Part shown: positions 18,995 through 57,555 of the stretch, in pieces
How the letters are laid out: each line of letters begins with the position of its first letter
Position numbering within the stretch: position 1 is the first letter of the stretch
Assembly: GCA_017540085.1 (NCBI GenBank)
Contig: JAFYBQ010000006.1
Location: 62,001-126,000 of the forward strand
DNA: 64,000 nt
DNA from: Synergistaceae bacterium
Lineage (GTDB): Bacteria > Synergistota > Synergistia > Synergistales > Aminobacteriaceae
Reading direction: 5' to 3'
The notes under the pieces: model-generated
Told to the model about the DNA's origin: nothing
Databases searched by the model: none
What the model saw: the letters and a program-made list of their open reading frames with translations, nothing else
Translations under genes and position numbers: made by a program

Positions 18995-21505
18995 TCACTT
19001 GCAGGGCGAATATCCGCAGCTGAAGCAGTACTCGCACCCCGAAATCATTTCAAGAGGAGAGCCGCACTCCGGGCACTTCAGCGATGCTTCTGTCATTTTT
19101 ACCTCAGTAACCTTCCTGTCTATGAGCTTGTTCAGCAACAACGCAACCGCGTCAGGAATCGAGCGCGCTACATAGTACTCATCACAGTCAAGCATCCAAT
19201 ACTCTTTGCCCGAAAGCCCTCGCAGAGTGTCAATGAAATCCTCAAGCCTGCACCCGGAGCGGAGGCCGATTGAAATCACGCGGGATAATGCCTCAGTCAT
19301 AGCTCTCATTTCTGAGCCTGACTTGCCCACGTTTATGAATATCTCGAACGGGTCTTTTCCGTCAAGATTCAGTGTGATATACATGCTTCCCCACGGCGTT
19401 ATGTCCTTTATCGTTTTCCCGAACACTATCGGCGCAGGGCGAGCCTTCACGCGGGTTTGCCTCTCTTCAGGCTCAGGAATGGGATTGCTGTCATCGTCTT
19501 TCCTGACTTCTATCGGCTGGAATGACCGCGAGCCGTCCCGGTATATCGTTATTCCCTTGCAGCCCATCGCGTAGCAGTCCTCGTACACCCGCCGGACATC
19601 TTCAACCGTCGCGGAGTTCGGGAGATTCACCGTCTTGCTTATGCCGCTGTCAACAAACTGCGCGAATATCCCCGTAACATTCACATGCTGCTGCGTGTCT
19701 ATGTCGTAGGCCGTAACATATGCAGGGTCAGCGATATGGCCGCCCGTTGAACGGTATTCGGCTTTAAGCTCAGGGGTAAGCAGCTTGTGCCAGAACTCGC
19801 GATCCTCAAAGCCGCTTCCGTCAGTCTTCATGATACGGCGATTCCATGACCACGCAAAATTAGGCTCAATCCCGGAGCTTGTATCAAGTAGCATTGATAT
19901 TGATCCTGTCGGGGCGATTGAAAGCCGGCGGCTGTTACGCATGTTTCCCCGAAAGAGATTCGACAGGATAAATTTTGCGTCCTCAAAGTCGAATTGCTCA
20001 AGCGTATTCAGGAGCGTAACGGGGATTTTTCCCGCGTCCCTCATTCCGCGTATCATCGCTCTGTACTCGCCGTTCGTCTCTGGCATTTTCACGTCAGCAA
20101 ACAATTCACTCACAAGCCTGTGCTCAGGGAACGGATTTTTACCCGCGTCAGTAGTGATTTGAATCGTCGCGCTTAGGGCAGAACGCGCCATTGTAGCACC
20201 GATTTTCTTGCAGAACGCGCCGAAACGGTCAGACCCGTACGCAATCCCCCGCATAATTGAAGCGTCCGCAAGTCCCATTATGCCGAGGCCAACAGGGCGG
20301 ATTGATTTCGTCCTTACGCCGATTTTCTCCAAGGGGTACGAGCAAGCGTCAATCACTAAATCAAGATAGTACACTGACCTGAAGACCTGTGCGCTGAAGC
20401 GTTCCCAGTCAAATTTGCGGTCATCGTTCACGAACATTTCAGCGTTGATTGAGCCGAGATTGCAGCTCGTGAAATTCGGCAAAGGCTGTTCACCGCAGGG
20501 ATTTGTCGCTTCTATCTCCCATTCAGAGCCGCCGAGCTTGAGAAGGTTGTCCTGCCTCGCCCTGTCAATGAAGAAAACTCCGGGGTCTCCGCGCTTCCAT
20601 GCCGACTCGCAGATGTGATTCAGGAGGTCTTTTGCTTTGATGGTTCGGACTGTGCTGCCGTCTGCGCGTGAATGAAGGTCAAAATCGCCGTCATCCTCTG
20701 CCGCCTTCATGAGCTTGTCGGAAACGGCAACCGAAATGTTGAAGTACGACAATTTCCCGTCTTCTGTCTTGCAGTCTATGAAGTCGAAAATGTCGGGGTG
20801 ATCGTCGAAAAGCATTCCCATCAATGCCGCCCGGCGTTTTCCTCCCTGAACGACAACCGCGCCCATTGTGTTCCATGTCTCCATGAATGACACAGGCCCC
20901 GATGCTTTTCCGCCTGTACCCCCGGCAATCTCTGAGCTTTGCTCCCGGAGGTGTCCGAAATTCCCGCCGACTCCCCCGCCGAATTTGCTGATTATGCTGG
21001 CGTTCTTCACGGAGTCAAATATTCCCTCTATGCTGTCTGGGACGCTTATCACGAAACACGCAAATAATTGCTGATTCTTTGTCCGCGATTCGTATAGCTT
21101 CCTGTAGTCGTCAAATGTCATGTCATCGGGACTCTTGTAGATTATTTCGGCGTATTCAGGAATCACCGTCAGCCCTGCCGCCGCGCTGAAAAGGCACGGA
21201 GAGTTGAACAGGAAACGGCGGTTGAGTATGTCGTCAGCAATATTAGTCTCAACGGTGCGAATCCAGCCTGCATTGTCGGAATAATTCACTTCCGCGCTTG
21301 CCACTGTCCTAGAAACTCGCCGGGCGAACTCCTCGAAACTGTTTTCCTTCCTGAGCGACTTTTTTTCAGCGTCATATCTCTGCACAAAATAACGCTGCTC
21401 CAATAGCCACATTGCATTGTCAGAAAGCCGCGGGCCTCCGTTAGGCTCAAGACTCCCCGCTGAAATTTCCGCGTTGAAATAATCCTTTATGTTCTGTCTG
21501 CCCAT
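18995..21505 (-). CDS. nrdJ: Adenosylcobalamin-dependent (class II) ribonucleotide reductase
   Basis: 836 residues. Reduces ribonucleotides to deoxyribonucleotides with a B12-generated radical. The active-site block NPCGEQPLPNFTSCNLGSIN puts the catalytic Cys at about 336 and Glu two residues later. RRLSIAPTGSISML follows in the barrel. The C-terminus carries the TSCPD-type region and a four-cysteine ribbon (CPECGSPLEMISGCEYCFSC) next to a final C-x-x-x-C-like tail that passes electrons. No ATP-cone is visible at the N-terminus. Oxygen-independent activity fits an anaerobe and creates a demand for cobalamin, which fits cobB elsewhere in the window. Confidence 0.95.
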   Translation of the reverse strand: MGRQNIKDYFNAEISAGSLEPNGGPRLSDNAMWLLEQRYFVQRYDAEKKSLRKENSFEEFARRVSRTVASAEVNYSDNAGWIRTVETNIADDILNRRFLFNSPCLFSAAAGLTVIPEYAEIIYKSPDDMTFDDYRKLYESRTKNQQLFACFVISVPDSIEGIFDSVKNASIISKFGGGVGGNFGHLREQSSEIAGGTGGKASGPVSFMETWNTMGAVVVQGGKRRAALMGMLFDDHPDIFDFIDCKTEDGKLSYFNISVAVSDKLMKAAEDDGDFDLHSRADGSTVRTIKAKDLLNHICESAWKRGDPGVFFIDRARQDNLLKLGGSEWEIEATNPCGEQPLPNFTSCNLGSINAEMFVNDDRKFDWERFSAQVFRSVYYLDLVIDACSYPLEKIGVRTKSIRPVGLGIMGLADASIMRGIAYGSDRFGAFCKKIGATMARSALSATIQITTDAGKNPFPEHRLVSELFADVKMPETNGEYRAMIRGMRDAGKIPVTLLNTLEQFDFEDAKFILSNLFRGNMRNSRRLSIAPTGSISMLLDTSSGIEPNFAWSWNRRIMKTDGSGFEDREFWHKLLTPELKAEYRSTGGHIADPAYVTAYDIDTQQHVNVTGIFAQFVDSGISKTVNLPNSATVEDVRRVYEDCYAMGCKGITIYRDGSRSFQPIEVRKDDDSNPIPEPEERQTRVKARPAPIVFGKTIKDITPWGSMYITLNLDGKDPFEIFINVGKSGSEMRAMTEALSRVISIGLRSGCRLEDFIDTLRGLSGKEYWMLDCDEYYVARSIPDAVALLLNKLIDRKVTEVKMTEASLKCPECGSPLEMISGCEYCFSCGYSPCK

Positions 21506-52880: not shown

Positions 52881-53177
52881 ACTTGAAACATATAAATATA
52901 TCTATGCAACAAGTTTTACAGTATAAAACTGCTGGCGTACTACACACCTCTATCAAGTCCGCTATAATAGCATTCCTGACTACTTGGTTACTTGGCTGAA
53001 CATTTTACAGACGAAACCTTTTCCTTCGTCTAACCGCCTATATTCAGTTGTCAAAAAACTTGTTACTTCATTCGATGTCTTGTTCGTCGACTCTGTTCAG
53101 AACTATGTGATTCACCGAATAAATTAGATATTATCATACATTCGCATATAAAACAAAGATAAGAATTTAATACGCAT
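52874..53177. other. AT-rich island with inverted repeats, no gene
   Basis: Composition changes sharply from the GC-rich neighbours. CATAGTTACTTGAAACA (52874-52890) faces an imperfect inverted copy, TGTTCAGAACTATG (53094-53107). AACAAGTTTT (52908-52917) faces AAAACTTGTT (53055-53064). A perfect hairpin AGACGAA/TTCGTCT stands at 53009-53031. GTTACTT occurs at 52878, 52987 and 53062. Only very short open frames. Looks like a decayed small mobile element or its ends; no transposase and no CRISPR repeat seen. Confidence 0.45.
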
Positions 53178-54506
53178 TTAATCCCTTCTTGAAGTCAACG
53201 ATTGCAGGAATTTTTCAGCAAGATGTTCGTTCCCGTAAAAGTTTATGTGAAGGTAGGATGCTAAAATATTCCCCCGCGCAAAGCCTCCGGGATGACTCCC
53301 GCTCCTGTTTCGCCTCGTCATCTCAAACGCGCAGAACTCCCCGAAAGTCTCAGGCTCAATCCGCGAATAGTGGTACTCATGGCCGCGAACAATATCACCC
53401 TCACGGCACAATATATTATTCCTCATTGCCCGCCCTGACATGTAGCCCATCACAGCCCGCCCGGTCATGAACGAGTCCCCCGGAATTACCCCGGCCATGT
53501 CGAATTTATGCCCGTCATTGTCGCAAAGAGTCCGGCAAAGATACATCATCCCCCCGCATTCGGCTAACATGGGCTTTCTGCACTGTCTCACGCTCTCAAT
53601 CATGGTAACGTTCCCGGCGAGTCCTTCCGCGAAAATTTCAGGATACCCCCCGCAGAATATATAGCCGTCAGCCTCCGGGAGTCTCTCATCATTCAGCGGG
53701 CTGAACGCGATAATCTCAGCTCCGAGAGTCTCAAGCGTCTTCAGGCTCTCAGGGTAAACGAACGTGAACGCCTCATCACATGCGACTCCGACTCGGACGT
53801 TATATTTTGCTGACGGGACAAATTCACCGCATGGCCGAATCTCCCGGACATTTCCTGCGGCCTCTAGTATTCCGTCAACGTCAACTGAAGACTCAAATTT
53901 CCCGGCGAGAGTCCCGAAATCGTATCCGCAATTTTCCCCCGCCTGTATCAGCCCTAAATGACGCTCAGGAATCTTCATGCCGTCATCCCGCCTCAATGCA
54001 CCGAGAAACTTTATGCCCTTCTCAGTTAGTGCTGACGATATAATTTCCTCGTGGTATTCTGACCCCGTGAAATTCAGAAGCACTCCCGCGAGATTTATAT
54101 CACGGTCATATTCACGGAAGCCCAATGCCAAAGCCGCGGCACTCTCTCCCATTGAACGCGCATTAATCACAAGCACAACGGGAGAGCCTGTAAGCCTCGC
54201 GATTTCCGCCGTGCTGTTTTCTCCCCCGTCATAGAGTCCCATTGCACCCTCGATTAATGCGATGTCTTTCCCGCGTGATGTTGAGTCGAAAAGCTGAAGA
54301 GTCCTGTCCTCCGTCATTAGCCACGTGTCGAGATTGTACGCCTGACAGTTTCCGGCCATGCTGAGATATTCGCGGTCAATGTAGTCCGGCCCGGCCTTGT
54401 ACGCTGAGACAGTCAGCCCCCGCTTTCTGAGGCAGGCGAGAAGGGCGCATGTTACTGTAGTTTTCCCGGAGCGGCTTGATGTCCCGGCGATTAGTACGCG
54501 CCTCAA
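53178..54506 (-). CDS. cobB: Cobyrinic acid a,c-diamide synthase (CobB/CbiA)
   Basis: 442 residues. Amidates two side chains of cobyrinic acid (or hydrogenobyrinate) with glutamine and ATP. N-terminal ATPase: AGTSSRSGKTT (P-loop), KAGPDYIDREYL and EGAMGLYDG. C-terminal class I glutaminase-like domain with the nucleophile in MLAECGGMMYL (about Cys316) and YHYSRIEP near the end. Its ATG overlaps the stop of thiT (ATGA), so it is the second gene behind a TPP riboswitch. No other cobalamin gene is nearby. Confidence 0.93.
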   Translation of the reverse strand: MRRVLIAGTSSRSGKTTVTCALLACLRKRGLTVSAYKAGPDYIDREYLSMAGNCQAYNLDTWLMTEDRTLQLFDSTSRGKDIALIEGAMGLYDGGENSTAEIARLTGSPVVLVINARSMGESAAALALGFREYDRDINLAGVLLNFTGSEYHEEIISSALTEKGIKFLGALRRDDGMKIPERHLGLIQAGENCGYDFGTLAGKFESSVDVDGILEAAGNVREIRPCGEFVPSAKYNVRVGVACDEAFTFVYPESLKTLETLGAEIIAFSPLNDERLPEADGYIFCGGYPEIFAEGLAGNVTMIESVRQCRKPMLAECGGMMYLCRTLCDNDGHKFDMAGVIPGDSFMTGRAVMGYMSGRAMRNNILCREGDIVRGHEYHYSRIEPETFGEFCAFEMTRRNRSGSHPGGFARGNILASYLHINFYGNEHLAEKFLQSLTSRRD

Positions 54507-55012
54507 ACGGCTAATTCGCGCTCAAGAATCTTCCACAGGATTAGCGCGGCGATTCCTGAGACTAAATATTTCACGCCGAGAACGGGAGCATTGTAGAAGA
54601 ATGAATATACCCATGGGCTTTGGCCTTCGGGGGCATACTGCGCGAAAAATATCGCCCCGGAAACTATGCTTGATGATGTCATTCCTGCAAACGCGAGAAT
54701 GAGTCCAAGCCACCACGGGTGAAGGTCAGCCAGTCCCACGAATGAATAGGCCAGCGGGTAATCAAGAATGGCCTGCACGGGGTTGTAGACGTATGCGCCG
54801 AGAAGTATACGCAGTACACCGGACAAAGCTCCGGCGGCAATTCCCCATTTCCATCCGCGGCGGTACGTGAAAAGAATCAGCGGGACAAGCTCAAAGTCTA
54901 CTGAGCCTCCCTGCGGCATCGTGAAAAGGTTGATTTTTGTCATGACAAACGACAGGGCTACGCATAAAGCACACTCAATCATTGCGGCGGTGTTTGCGCG
55001 TCTTGAAGGCAT
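54503..55012 (-). CDS. thiT: Thiamine ECF transporter substrate-binding subunit ThiT
   Basis: 169 residues with about six hydrophobic segments. The start IECALCVALSFVMTKINLF followed by MPQGGSVDFELVPLILF and YRRGWKWGIAAGALSG matches ThiT (YuaJ), the membrane subunit that binds thiamine and docks on a shared energy-coupling module (not in the window). AGGAGG 8 bases upstream. The TPP riboswitch directly upstream confirms the substrate. Translationally coupled to cobB. Confidence 0.92.
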   Translation of the reverse strand: MPSRRANTAAMIECALCVALSFVMTKINLFTMPQGGSVDFELVPLILFTYRRGWKWGIAAGALSGVLRILLGAYVYNPVQAILDYPLAYSFVGLADLHPWWLGLILAFAGMTSSSIVSGAIFFAQYAPEGQSPWVYSFFYNAPVLGVKYLVSGIAALILWKILERELAV

Positions 55013-55059
55013 GATGTTTCCTCCTGATGTGCGAAATTTTCAGGGCGGGTATAAATTTT

Positions 55060-55143
55060 GTCTCCCTGCGGCGGAATTGCCCGCTTCAGGTTCAAAGGGT
55101 CGGTGATTTTTCTCACCCTCTCAGCAAAAATAAGCTCCCCTGA
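55060..55143 (-). promoter_or_regulatory. TPP riboswitch (THI element)
   Basis: On the reverse strand, in order: CAGGGGAGC, the CTGAGAGGGTG pyrimidine-sensing arm, GACCCTTTGAACCTGA, and GGGCAATTCCGCCGCAGGGAG. The CTGAGA and ACCCTTTGAACCTGA cores are the invariant parts of the thiamine pyrophosphate riboswitch. Lies between promoter and thiT. Expected to shut off thiT and cobB when TPP is high; the short distance to the ribosome site suggests control of translation, and no separate terminator is obvious. Confidence 0.93.
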
Positions 55144-55152
55144 ATGCAGAAT

Positions 55153-55181
55153 ATTATAACGCTTTACGCAATTTATGTTAA
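55153..55181 (-). promoter_or_regulatory. Promoter of the thiT-cobB transcript
   Basis: Reverse strand TTAACA (55176-55181), 17-base spacer, TATAAT (55153-55158). Start expected near 55146, just before the riboswitch. Confidence 0.8.
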
Positions 55182-55221
55182 AATTCAATCAGTAAAATTC
55201 ATGTCAAGGGAGTAATGTTTA

Positions 55222-57555
55222 ATGAAAAAATTTTGCGTTACGTTTTACCTTTTCATACTGGCATCGTTTGTGTTCGCGATGTCAGGCTGCGGGGGCAGCA
55301 GCGGCGGAACTGTCGCCATCAATGACAACGGCAGCGGCGGCAACACTTCCACACAGTCAGCACAGAGCAGGAGAATGATATTCACCTCATCGGCACTCAA
55401 GCGCGGCAAAAACTACAGGCTTTTTCTGGGGAAAAATGCAAACGCGTTAGAGTTAAATACACCGGAGAACCCGAAATTTTTTCTTCCTCCTGTAACAAGA
55501 GGAAGCGAGGATATTACGCTCAATCTTGAGTTTAGCAGCGAGGTGAACCCGGATTTACCGTTCATGATTACGGAAGGGGATGGCGAAACGGTGGTGTTCT
55601 CCTACAATCCCAAAGGAACGGGCGAGGACACAACATCAAGGCAAGTTAAGCGTTACGGCGACGGAATGTATTATTTAACATACTCAAGCCTTACGCTCAC
55701 GGGCGCGTCAGTCGAGCTTGAAGAAAGCGAGGGAATCATTGACATCGTGCTTAACTCTGACGGTACAGCCACAGCAAGCGGGGATGAAGTCCCCGTGTAT
55801 GATTATGTGTGGCACGCAGACCCTCAGCACCCGGCGGAATATTGGACGCTCGGCGCGAACGGGACAGATGAGCTTGACGCGGACGCATACGAGACGGCAA
55901 TAGAGGAAGGCGGCACGAACAACGGAATCTATATCGCCCGTGATATTCGCTACACTTCAGACACGCTGAACTTCACGACATCACAGACAGCCACAAAGGA
56001 CGAGGATACAGAGTATGTAGTGTATTACGATTTCACGTCCGAGGCTGTAAGGTCGGCTCTTGCTAATGTTGTGTCTACATACGGGTCAGCGTACAGCAGC
56101 GACAAGTACATTTTCGCGACTCTCCCGATGTCCATGGGCATGGGCGGCGGTATGCCCGGCGGAACAATGCCCAGCGGTGATATGGGCGGCTTCCCCGGCG
56201 GAAATATGCCCAGCGGCGACATGGGCGGGAATCCTCCCAGCGGTATGCCCAGCGGCGACAGAGGCGGAAATCCTCCCAGCGGCGGCTTCCCCGGCAATAA
56301 TACTCAGCTTCCCATTATGGGCGCGGCTTCTGACAGCTCAATAGCGGCTGTTTCAACAATGCTTCACTCATCGGCGGACGCTTACGCAAACCCCGTGCTT
56401 CACATCACCGAACCCGGAACTTACAGACTTTCAGGAACATGGAACGGTCAGATATGGATTGAAACGGGAGCTAAGGCACGTCATCAGGTCGGGCTTATCC
56501 TGAACGGCGTTACGGTGAAATGCAAAGTTGCACCCGCGCTTGTGTTCTACAAGGTCTACAAGTGGGCAGAGGATAACGGCTACGATGACCAGGACACATT
56601 AGCCACTAATAACCTGTGGCGGAATATCGGCGGGAAAATGTTAAGCGGAGACGGATATTTCTACAACGGCGCAATTGTTGAGGTTGCTGACGGGACGACA
56701 AACACCTTCACCGGCGCGAACGTCTACAGGATTCTTGAGCTTTGCCCGAAACTTACGGACAGCGGAGACGAAGAAGTTGTGAAATACACAGGCTCAAGCA
56801 TAAAGATAGGGACAGACATCGGCCAGCAGGAAAAGATGTACAAACTTGACGGGGCATTCCATTCCCGGCGGTCTATGGTAATCGGCGGAGGCGAAGCGGG
56901 TACAGGTACGCTCAATATTACGTCCTCGACATATGAAGGTCTCGACTCTGAAATGCACCTTGTTGTCAACAGCGGCATAATCAATGTTACGGCGGCTGAT
57001 GACGGAATCAACGTCAACGAGGATTATGTTTCAGTGTTCCAGATGGACGGCGGGACTCTCACGGTGTCTTCAACAGGCGGAGACGGCATAGACTCTAACG
57101 GATGGATTGCCATCAACGGCGGAAAGGTTGACATCACCGCAGGAAGCTCAAGCACAGGTGTTGAGGCAGGCATGGACTATGATAATGATTTATACATCTA
57201 CGACAGCAGTGCGTACACATATCATCAGGCAAGCTCACAGGGCGGCGGCGGAAATACTCCCCCAAGCGGCGGTACAGACACAGGCACAGCCAGCGGAGAC
57301 CAGTCCGGCAGCACAGGCACAGGCACGACAAGCGGCGACCAGTCCGGCACGGATACAGGAACAACAACATACAACACACTTCCTGTAACCGAGATAAAAC
57401 ATACCATCGGAAACGGCGCGGCGGTGTTCATATTGTTCCCCAACGATTCAACCATTCAGACTGACACCGAGGGCGAAAGGACAATCCCTCCAAGAAGTAA
57501 CTCATTCGTCATTGAGCACAAGGTAAACGATTTCTCCGGAATATATGGCTATTGA
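55222..57555 (+). CDS. Lipoprotein with Cthe_2159-type (DUF4353) carbohydrate-binding beta-helix
   Basis: 777 residues. Signal peptide with lipobox (FVFAMSGCGG, Cys about 23). An N-terminal domain (about 50-190: FTSSALKRGKNYRLFLGKNA) shared with the next lipoprotein. A low-complexity Gly/Met/Pro/Ser stretch (about 303-360, repeats of MPSGDMGG). Then a beta-helix-like domain (about 390-680) with HSRRSMVIGGGEAGTGTLNI, AADDGINVNEDYVSVFQMDG and GDGIDSNGWIAINGGKVDIT, the pattern of the Cthe_2159 pectate/cellulose-binding family with calcium sites. A second Gly/Thr linker and a short end (VNDFSGIYGY). Outer-surface polysaccharide binding is plausible. Promoter not obvious. Confidence 0.75.
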   Translation: MKKFCVTFYLFILASFVFAMSGCGGSSGGTVAINDNGSGGNTSTQSAQSRRMIFTSSALKRGKNYRLFLGKNANALELNTPENPKFFLPPVTRGSEDITLNLEFSSEVNPDLPFMITEGDGETVVFSYNPKGTGEDTTSRQVKRYGDGMYYLTYSSLTLTGASVELEESEGIIDIVLNSDGTATASGDEVPVYDYVWHADPQHPAEYWTLGANGTDELDADAYETAIEEGGTNNGIYIARDIRYTSDTLNFTTSQTATKDEDTEYVVYYDFTSEAVRSALANVVSTYGSAYSSDKYIFATLPMSMGMGGGMPGGTMPSGDMGGFPGGNMPSGDMGGNPPSGMPSGDRGGNPPSGGFPGNNTQLPIMGAASDSSIAAVSTMLHSSADAYANPVLHITEPGTYRLSGTWNGQIWIETGAKARHQVGLILNGVTVKCKVAPALVFYKVYKWAEDNGYDDQDTLATNNLWRNIGGKMLSGDGYFYNGAIVEVADGTTNTFTGANVYRILELCPKLTDSGDEEVVKYTGSSIKIGTDIGQQEKMYKLDGAFHSRRSMVIGGGEAGTGTLNITSSTYEGLDSEMHLVVNSGIINVTAADDGINVNEDYVSVFQMDGGTLTVSSTGGDGIDSNGWIAINGGKVDITAGSSSTGVEAGMDYDNDLYIYDSSAYTYHQASSQGGGGNTPPSGGTDTGTASGDQSGSTGTGTTSGDQSGTDTGTTTYNTLPVTEIKHTIGNGAAVFILFPNDSTIQTDTEGERTIPPRSNSFVIEHKVNDFSGIYGY

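Follow-up and report, generated by a model that had tools for sequence, protein, structure and literature searches.

A putative thiT-cobB operon behind a TPP riboswitch in ruminant-gut Synergistaceae, with likely thiamine control of a cobalamin biosynthesis gene

The window, the whole 64,000-nucleotide stretch of Synergistaceae DNA that we analyzed, carries a promoter-like site, a TPP riboswitch, thiT, and cobB one after another between 55181 and 53178 of its minus strand. An earlier note on this DNA had placed these elements in this order on one strand, had described a 4-base overlap between the two genes, and had pointed to nrdJ in the same window. The coordinates and order were right, with RF00059, TIGR02357, and NF002204 all over their cut-offs. 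The overlap is the TTGA at 54506-54503, and nrdJ lies at 21505-18995 on the minus strand, with TIGR02504 over its cut-off. The features are listed here:

55153-55181, minus strand: sigma-70-like promoter TTAACA-17-TATAAT, 11 of 12 matches
55046-55151, minus strand: TPP riboswitch aptamer (RF00059), 61.5 bits against a gathering score of 54.3
55137-55144, minus strand: UUCAGGGG, the 5' strand of aptamer helix P2, complementary to the anti-Shine-Dalgarno segment; the ligand-free minimum-energy fold pairs it with 55039-55045
55039-55045, minus strand: CCCUGAA, putative anti-Shine-Dalgarno switch segment whose partners would be 55137-55144 or the Shine-Dalgarno; complementarity in most leaders, covariation weak
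55020-55027, minus strand: UCAGGAGG, Shine-Dalgarno of thiT, duplex energy -10.3 kcal/mol
54503-55012, minus strand: thiT, S component of an ECF thiamine transporter (TIGR02357, PF09515)
54503-54506, minus strand: TTGA, the 4-base overlap of thiT stop and cobB start, read from the sequence
53178-54506, minus strand: cobB/cbiA, cobyrinate a,c-diamide synthase (NF002204, TIGR00379), the sole match in the genome
52779-52883, minus strand: 35-residue remnant of a flavodoxin gene, sharing 77% identity with the intact gene that follows cobB in the related genome G035
18995-21505, minus strand: nrdJ, adenosylcobalamin-dependent ribonucleotide reductase (context only), TIGR02504 at 509.4 bits with a cut-off of 399.95

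Both genes of the putative operon were identified by profile matches. ThiT scored 119.9 bits with TIGR02357 (cut-off 108.45) and 142.9 bits with PF09515 (cut-off 25.8). CobB scored 450.8 bits with NF002204 (cut-off 254) and 375.8 bits with TIGR00379 (cut-off 261.4), and it is the one CobB match in its own genome (G000). Its motifs GTSSRSGKT, HEYHYS, and ECGGMMYLC contain what we take to be the P-loop and the amidotransferase Cys and His, all of them present. Two other identities were considered and rejected: the Ni-sirohydrochlorin a,c-diamide synthase CfbB, whose model reached 392.3 against a cut-off of 560 in a genome that has cbiF/G/C/D/ET, and CobQ, whose models scored far below NF002204.

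The host belongs to a genus of uncultured ruminant-gut Synergistaceae, and its own genome comprises 2.17 Mb in 42 contigs. The nearest named cobB loci come from gut metagenome-assembled genomes of goat, red deer, sheep, and reindeer labelled Synergistaceae, Synergistales, or Fretibacterium. Much of the B12 pathway and a thiamine salvage set are present in the same genome. Besides cobB, its B12 genes include cobS, cbiB, six TP-methylase frames, a cobD-like frame below the cut-off, and a shortened cobQ. A further set lies in one run on the minus strand (C37, L207:4999-13092), where cbiF-cbiG-cbiC-cbiD-cbiET continue from hisH-hisA-hisF-hisIE and a hisJ-type gene (hisA, hisF, and hisIE named by eye). 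Most gene ends in this run overlap or nearly touch, as if the B12 genes had joined a histidine operon. By coordinates, CbiC lies 5-7 kb from a weak GATase_3 match that is presumably hisH, both on one strand, in no fewer than 11 other genomes of the genus (G020, G021, G024, G027, G030, G038, G040, G041, G057, G059, and G060).

The riboswitch match covers model positions 1-105 of 105 with an E value of 1.2e-9, exceeds the gathering score, and is the only match above a gathering score within the window. Promoter-like sites in the stretch numbered 2 against 2.5 in shuffles, so the promoter match alone is not above chance; a TATAAT stands at a comparable place ahead of the aptamer in many relatives. 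The genome as a whole has two TPP switches, one before thiT and the other before thiM, thiE, a thiD-tenA fusion, and thiN, the thiamine diphosphokinase.

The canonical TPP aptamer before thiT bears on whether ThiT still carries thiamine. We assigned thiamine-binding residues from Lactococcus lactis ThiT and presume that His125 is among them. Aligned with that protein, the window ThiT keeps Tyr74, Tyr146, and Asn151; Glu84 is replaced by Asp, His125 by Ser, Trp133 by Phe, and Trp138 by Pro, and Trp34 is not aligned. At the His125 position, Ser occurs in 27 of the 36 aligned rows from the genus and His in 6 (including the basal G032), compared with His in 16 of 17 rows from other genera; the residue that differs is presumed to bind thiamine. 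One could propose on this basis that the substrate has shifted to a thiamine precursor or a corrin-related compound, making the operon functionally coherent through a ligand pathway common to thiT and cobB. However, the aptamer type, the three residues kept, the occurrence of the Trp133 and Trp138 changes in other genera too, and the presence of a thiamine diphosphokinase to use imported thiamine all argue against it, and we consider this reading highly improbable.

Between the aptamer and the thiT start lies a short segment, CCCUGAA in the window and CCUCUGAA or CCUCCGAA in other leaders. In most leaders two partners are open to it: the P2 strand UUCAGGGG (which reads UUCGGGGG in leaders with CUCCGAA) and the Shine-Dalgarno. 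Ligand-free folds of six leaders gave the P2-strand pairing in three (the window's G000, G038, and G056) and the Shine-Dalgarno pairing in three (G035, G040, and G043); the two pairings are thus close in energy. Covariation between the segment and the P2 strand was weak: in 25 leaders (G041 omitted), 151 of 175 cells were paired against a shuffle mean of 148.8, and 189 of 2,000 shuffles reached the observed value. Complementarity within single leaders had p < 0.05 in only 11 of 26, these p values being rough because a simple shuffle was used and the best site taken. No terminator-like site was found on the minus strand within 52950-55300. A transcription-terminator platform was rejected, since the sole terminator-like site in that interval is on the other strand and 1 site is fewer than the 2.3 found in shuffles. 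The dual-pairing segment, combined with the lack of a visible terminator, suggests that thiT is probably controlled by translational switching.

The junction between the two genes points in a similar direction for cobB. Its TTG is the sole in-frame ATG, GTG, or TTG start, and its Shine-Dalgarno energy in the window is -1.9 kcal/mol compared with -10.3 kcal/mol for thiT. We scored the junction in 29 linked genomes (G025, G036, and G037, with broken or cut junctions, were omitted). Relative to the thiT stop, cobB starts at -4 in 14 species and within -4 to +3 in 21 of 29. At all 21 of these tight junctions the cobB Shine-Dalgarno never reaches -4.4 kcal/mol (mean -2.0), compared with a mean of -9.4 for thiT. 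With no good Shine-Dalgarno of its own at tight junctions, cobB would probably depend on the translation of thiT. Within the window thiT, a scan for minus-strand promoter-like sites of at least 9/12 found none, and a looser scan gave 8/12 as the best site. The layout is that of one operon, in which the two genes would probably be co-transcribed.

In order to judge how widely this layout is kept, we compared 81 genomes, 43 from the host genus (one per species) and 38 from other genera of the family, and scored linkage from CobB, ThiT, and RF00059 matches and from the DNA of the loci. Seven of the 43 could not be judged, a gene being absent or truncated at the edge of a contig (G029, G031, G046, G047, G049, G052, and G055). 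In 32 of the 36 judgeable species (32/43 in total), the gene immediately upstream of cobB, on the same strand, is thiT; the two genes are apart in G032, G044, G050, and G053. The arrangement is kept with cobB identity down to about 50%, and its recurrence in 32 of 43 species makes it more than chance. In the 12 other-genus genomes with strong matches of both genes, it occurs by coordinates in none: 10 have the genes on separate contigs, G013 has them 1.75 Mb from each other, and in G064 they are divergent neighbors. Among the best 80 of 292 GTDB cobB loci, which overlap with the compared family genomes, a ThiT frame lies just upstream in 21, all of them Synergistales; no ThiT frame was seen in the flanks, some of them short, of the other 59 (58 outside Synergistales plus L146, from Synergistales). 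The earlier note had asked whether relatives keep the overlap and had regarded widely separated genes as contrary evidence. Close linkage is indeed the rule in the genus, but the genes are apart in four species and separated by wider spacers of 12-92 bases in 8 of the 29 scored.

The riboswitch follows the gene pair less strictly. A TPP match stands ahead of thiT in 26 of the 32 linked species, over the gathering score in 24 of the 26, and 59-92 bases from the thiT match in 25 and 251 bases in G041. The other six (G025, G027, G036, G039, G045, and G061) have no TPP match, even at an E value of 0.5, and the linkage can therefore persist without the switch. In G025 the thiT match contains two stops, and its end lies some 400 bases short of cobB. 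These six species fit a reading in which cobB sits beside thiT without being TPP-regulated, either driven by a weak promoter within thiT or translated on its own, so that the switch sets thiT alone. The same reading gains from G027, where a 92-base spacer contains TTATCA-16-TATAAT (10/12) about 40 bases before cobB, and from G054, G026, and G041, three of the species with spacers, in which cobB has a ribosome site of its own. The earlier note had named an internal cobB promoter as a refutation; the window has no candidate of at least 9/12 for one, but G027 does. For the window itself, the promoter scans of thiT and the poor cobB ribosome site speak against an unregulated cobB, which we regard as somewhat unlikely.

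General synteny could also explain the linkage. In 19 neighborhoods (the window and 18 of the other 31 linked genomes), a lipoprotein-like family lies upstream in 18, a P-type ATPase in 14, and an arsR-type gene in 11. We had considered that the linkage was selected because it outlived its surroundings, but with these shared neighbors the argument does not hold upstream; the downstream genes vary more. As the upstream surroundings are conserved too, conserved linkage alone is no proof of selection for co-regulation. A flavodoxin-family gene was present in 16 of the 19 neighborhoods and directly after cobB in 12 of those.

Based on the observed order, overlap, aptamer, conservation, and weak cobB ribosome site, we infer, with moderate confidence, a bicistronic thiT-cobB operon governed by one TPP riboswitch through translational switching and coupling. 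When TPP is scarce, CCCUGAA (55045-55039) would pair with the P2 strand (55144-55137), leaving the thiT ribosome site free and thiT translated, and ribosomes terminating at TTGA would reinitiate on cobB. When TPP is plentiful, P2 would form in the bound aptamer, and the freed CCCUGAA would pair with the thiT Shine-Dalgarno. TPP would then turn down thiT, and cobB with it through lost coupling. TPP control of cobB is likely under this scheme. The gene would have been placed under the switch by a rearrangement within the genus, a regulatory capture in which the TPP control is real but perhaps incidental.

The control of B12 genes in the genus allows a more purposeful interpretation to be weighed. 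Under strict filters, cobalamin riboswitch matches occur in 3 of 43 genomes of the genus (G032, G044, and G055) compared with 36 of 38 from other genera, and there is none in the window's own genome among all 149 candidates scored. Streptococcus sanguinis, according to the parts consulted of a comparative survey (PMC3766115), has the whole B12 pathway but no cobalamin riboswitch. Thiamine shortage might raise B12 synthesis adaptively, for example if the B12-dependent NrdJ or amino-acid fermentation compensated for TPP-dependent enzymes, with B12 feedback having been replaced. The scarcity of cobalamin riboswitches agrees with this, as do cobB being the only match in a genome with much of the pathway and the presence of nrdJ. 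On the other hand, neither of the two TPP switches lies at the B12 genes located elsewhere in the genome, where we found none; the cbi genes behind the histidine genes look like scattering rather than a B1 program; and in the three species with cobalamin riboswitches, the 6 matches examined, out of 7, stand before frames read by eye as btuFCD-like (B12 uptake), eut-like, and cbiK-like, not before cobB. Loss of B12 switches and gain of the linkage each look like roughly a single event, and statistically their coincidence therefore counts for little. We consider such adaptive cross-talk unlikely.

Regulatory capture by rearrangement is the likelier of the two, favored because six linked species have no TPP match, the upstream surroundings are conserved, the other located B12 genes have no TPP switch, and switch loss and linkage gain each look like roughly a single event. 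A broader proposal, which we put forward tentatively and hold to be possible rather than probable, is that most of the genus gave up B12-sensing riboswitches and placed its sole CobB under a TPP switch via the translationally coupled overlap, so that thiamine, and not B12, would gate corrin synthesis; with the widespread loss of the amidotransferase domain from CobQ, the next amidating enzyme, described below, this would amount to a rewired B12 pathway.

The history of the locus was read from a CobB tree, rooted for drawing only, in which 11 forks are open and G050 and G005 sit on long branches. The other genera and G032 plus G044 fall outside a branch (98/99) that holds every one of the 32 linked genomes together with G047 and the unlinked, long-branched G050 and G053. 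Directly before cobB in G032, G044, and G019 is speD (TIGR03330), and weaker evidence, from frames read on the reverse strand, places it there in G063 and G064 as well. In G053, cobB comes after a cobU-like gene (97.8 bits, cut-off 161) with one frame between them, and in G050 after a D-Ala-D-Ala ligase. As cobB follows speD in these genomes, among them two basal species of the genus, speD-cobB is probably the older order, and thiT-cobB probably arose inside the genus, most simply once. In G064, from another genus of the family (L109, C188:1-4101), a TPP-switch thiT on the minus strand lies divergently beside an apparent speD-cobB on the plus strand, a layout that is a possible intermediate of the thiT-cobB arrangement.

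All the parts of the proposed system are of known kinds. TPP switches of the E. coli thiM type act translationally by exchanging an anti-Shine-Dalgarno segment between an aptamer strand and the Shine-Dalgarno. The same exchange is proposed here, except that the alternative partner is the P2 5' strand and the second gene would be a B12 enzyme reached by coupling. The closest counterpart of the first half of the locus is the L. lactis RSthiT, as described in the portions consulted (PMC8862789): there too thiT, the gene of the ECF S component, directly follows a TPP aptamer, and thiamine was shown by experiment to lower thiT expression. Those portions mention no cobalamin gene behind thiT, whereas here cobB overlaps thiT by 4 bases. 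For the second half, the M. tuberculosis uPPE2-PPE2 relay offers a parallel in the sections seen (PMC11260477). The ppe2 gene, in a ppe2-cobQ(U) operon, has no Shine-Dalgarno, lies behind a B12 riboswitch, joins the upstream frame by a NUGA stop/start overlap, and is translated by termination-reinitiation. In that relay B12 is sensed and a short uORF comes first, while here the ligand is TPP and thiT comes first. By analogy, blocking thiT translation would lower cobB through the same kind of termination-reinitiation.

The earlier note had held that TPP riboswitches normally control thiamine genes only, which would make one ahead of cobB unusual, and this agrees with a survey, with TPP sites in 249 genomes, that describes TPP regulons by two categories, thiamine synthesis and thiamine transport (PMC3766115). 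The same source places B12 synthesis genes under cobalamin riboswitches; the pathway is again under a vitamin-sensing riboswitch here, but the vitamin sensed would be B1, in a genome without a cobalamin riboswitch match. Among the open-access titles listed, none dealt with a cobB or cbiA gene downstream of a TPP riboswitch, and PMC8247775, so far as consulted, names both terms in unrelated places. The probable novelty lies in the regulon membership of cobB behind a TPP switch, kept across the genus. A TPP riboswitch is usually taken as a dependable sign of thiamine genes, and B12 synthesis is seen as a process under B12 control. An exception that is conserved would demonstrate that a riboswitch regulon can take in genes of another vitamin via operon rearrangement and translational coupling, and it would provide a defined case for asking whether regulon capture is neutral or useful. 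It also advises caution, as not every gene behind a TPP switch need have a role in thiamine metabolism.

A separate observation concerns cobyric acid synthase, CobQ/CbiP. In the window's own genome (C22, L105:9659-10528, minus strand) it is 289 aa long and keeps the synthetase half and a C-terminal tail, and the GATase_3 domain has been lost in frame (no Pfam match); at the same place in G021 the protein has 500 aa with the domain present. By profile match and alignment (relatives' loci L233-L269), CobQ in the 43 genomes of the genus is short in 28 (in G054 cut by masked bases), full length in 8, equipped with a decayed amidotransferase domain without the CGG motif in 3 (G034, G056, and G057), and unclassed in 4. 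The one paper listed for a GATase-less CobQ in the open-access literature, PMC3541065, is unrelated to it in the parts seen. In a tree of the CobQ N domain with 40 rows, the short form requires at least 5 changes, and constraining it to a single clade gave a p-AU of 0.044. CobB keeps its amidotransferase in the window's genome, where the only other GATase_3 match, a weak one, is hisH. The shortened CobQ possibly uses ammonia, in an ammonia-rich gut, or a glutaminase shared with CobB.
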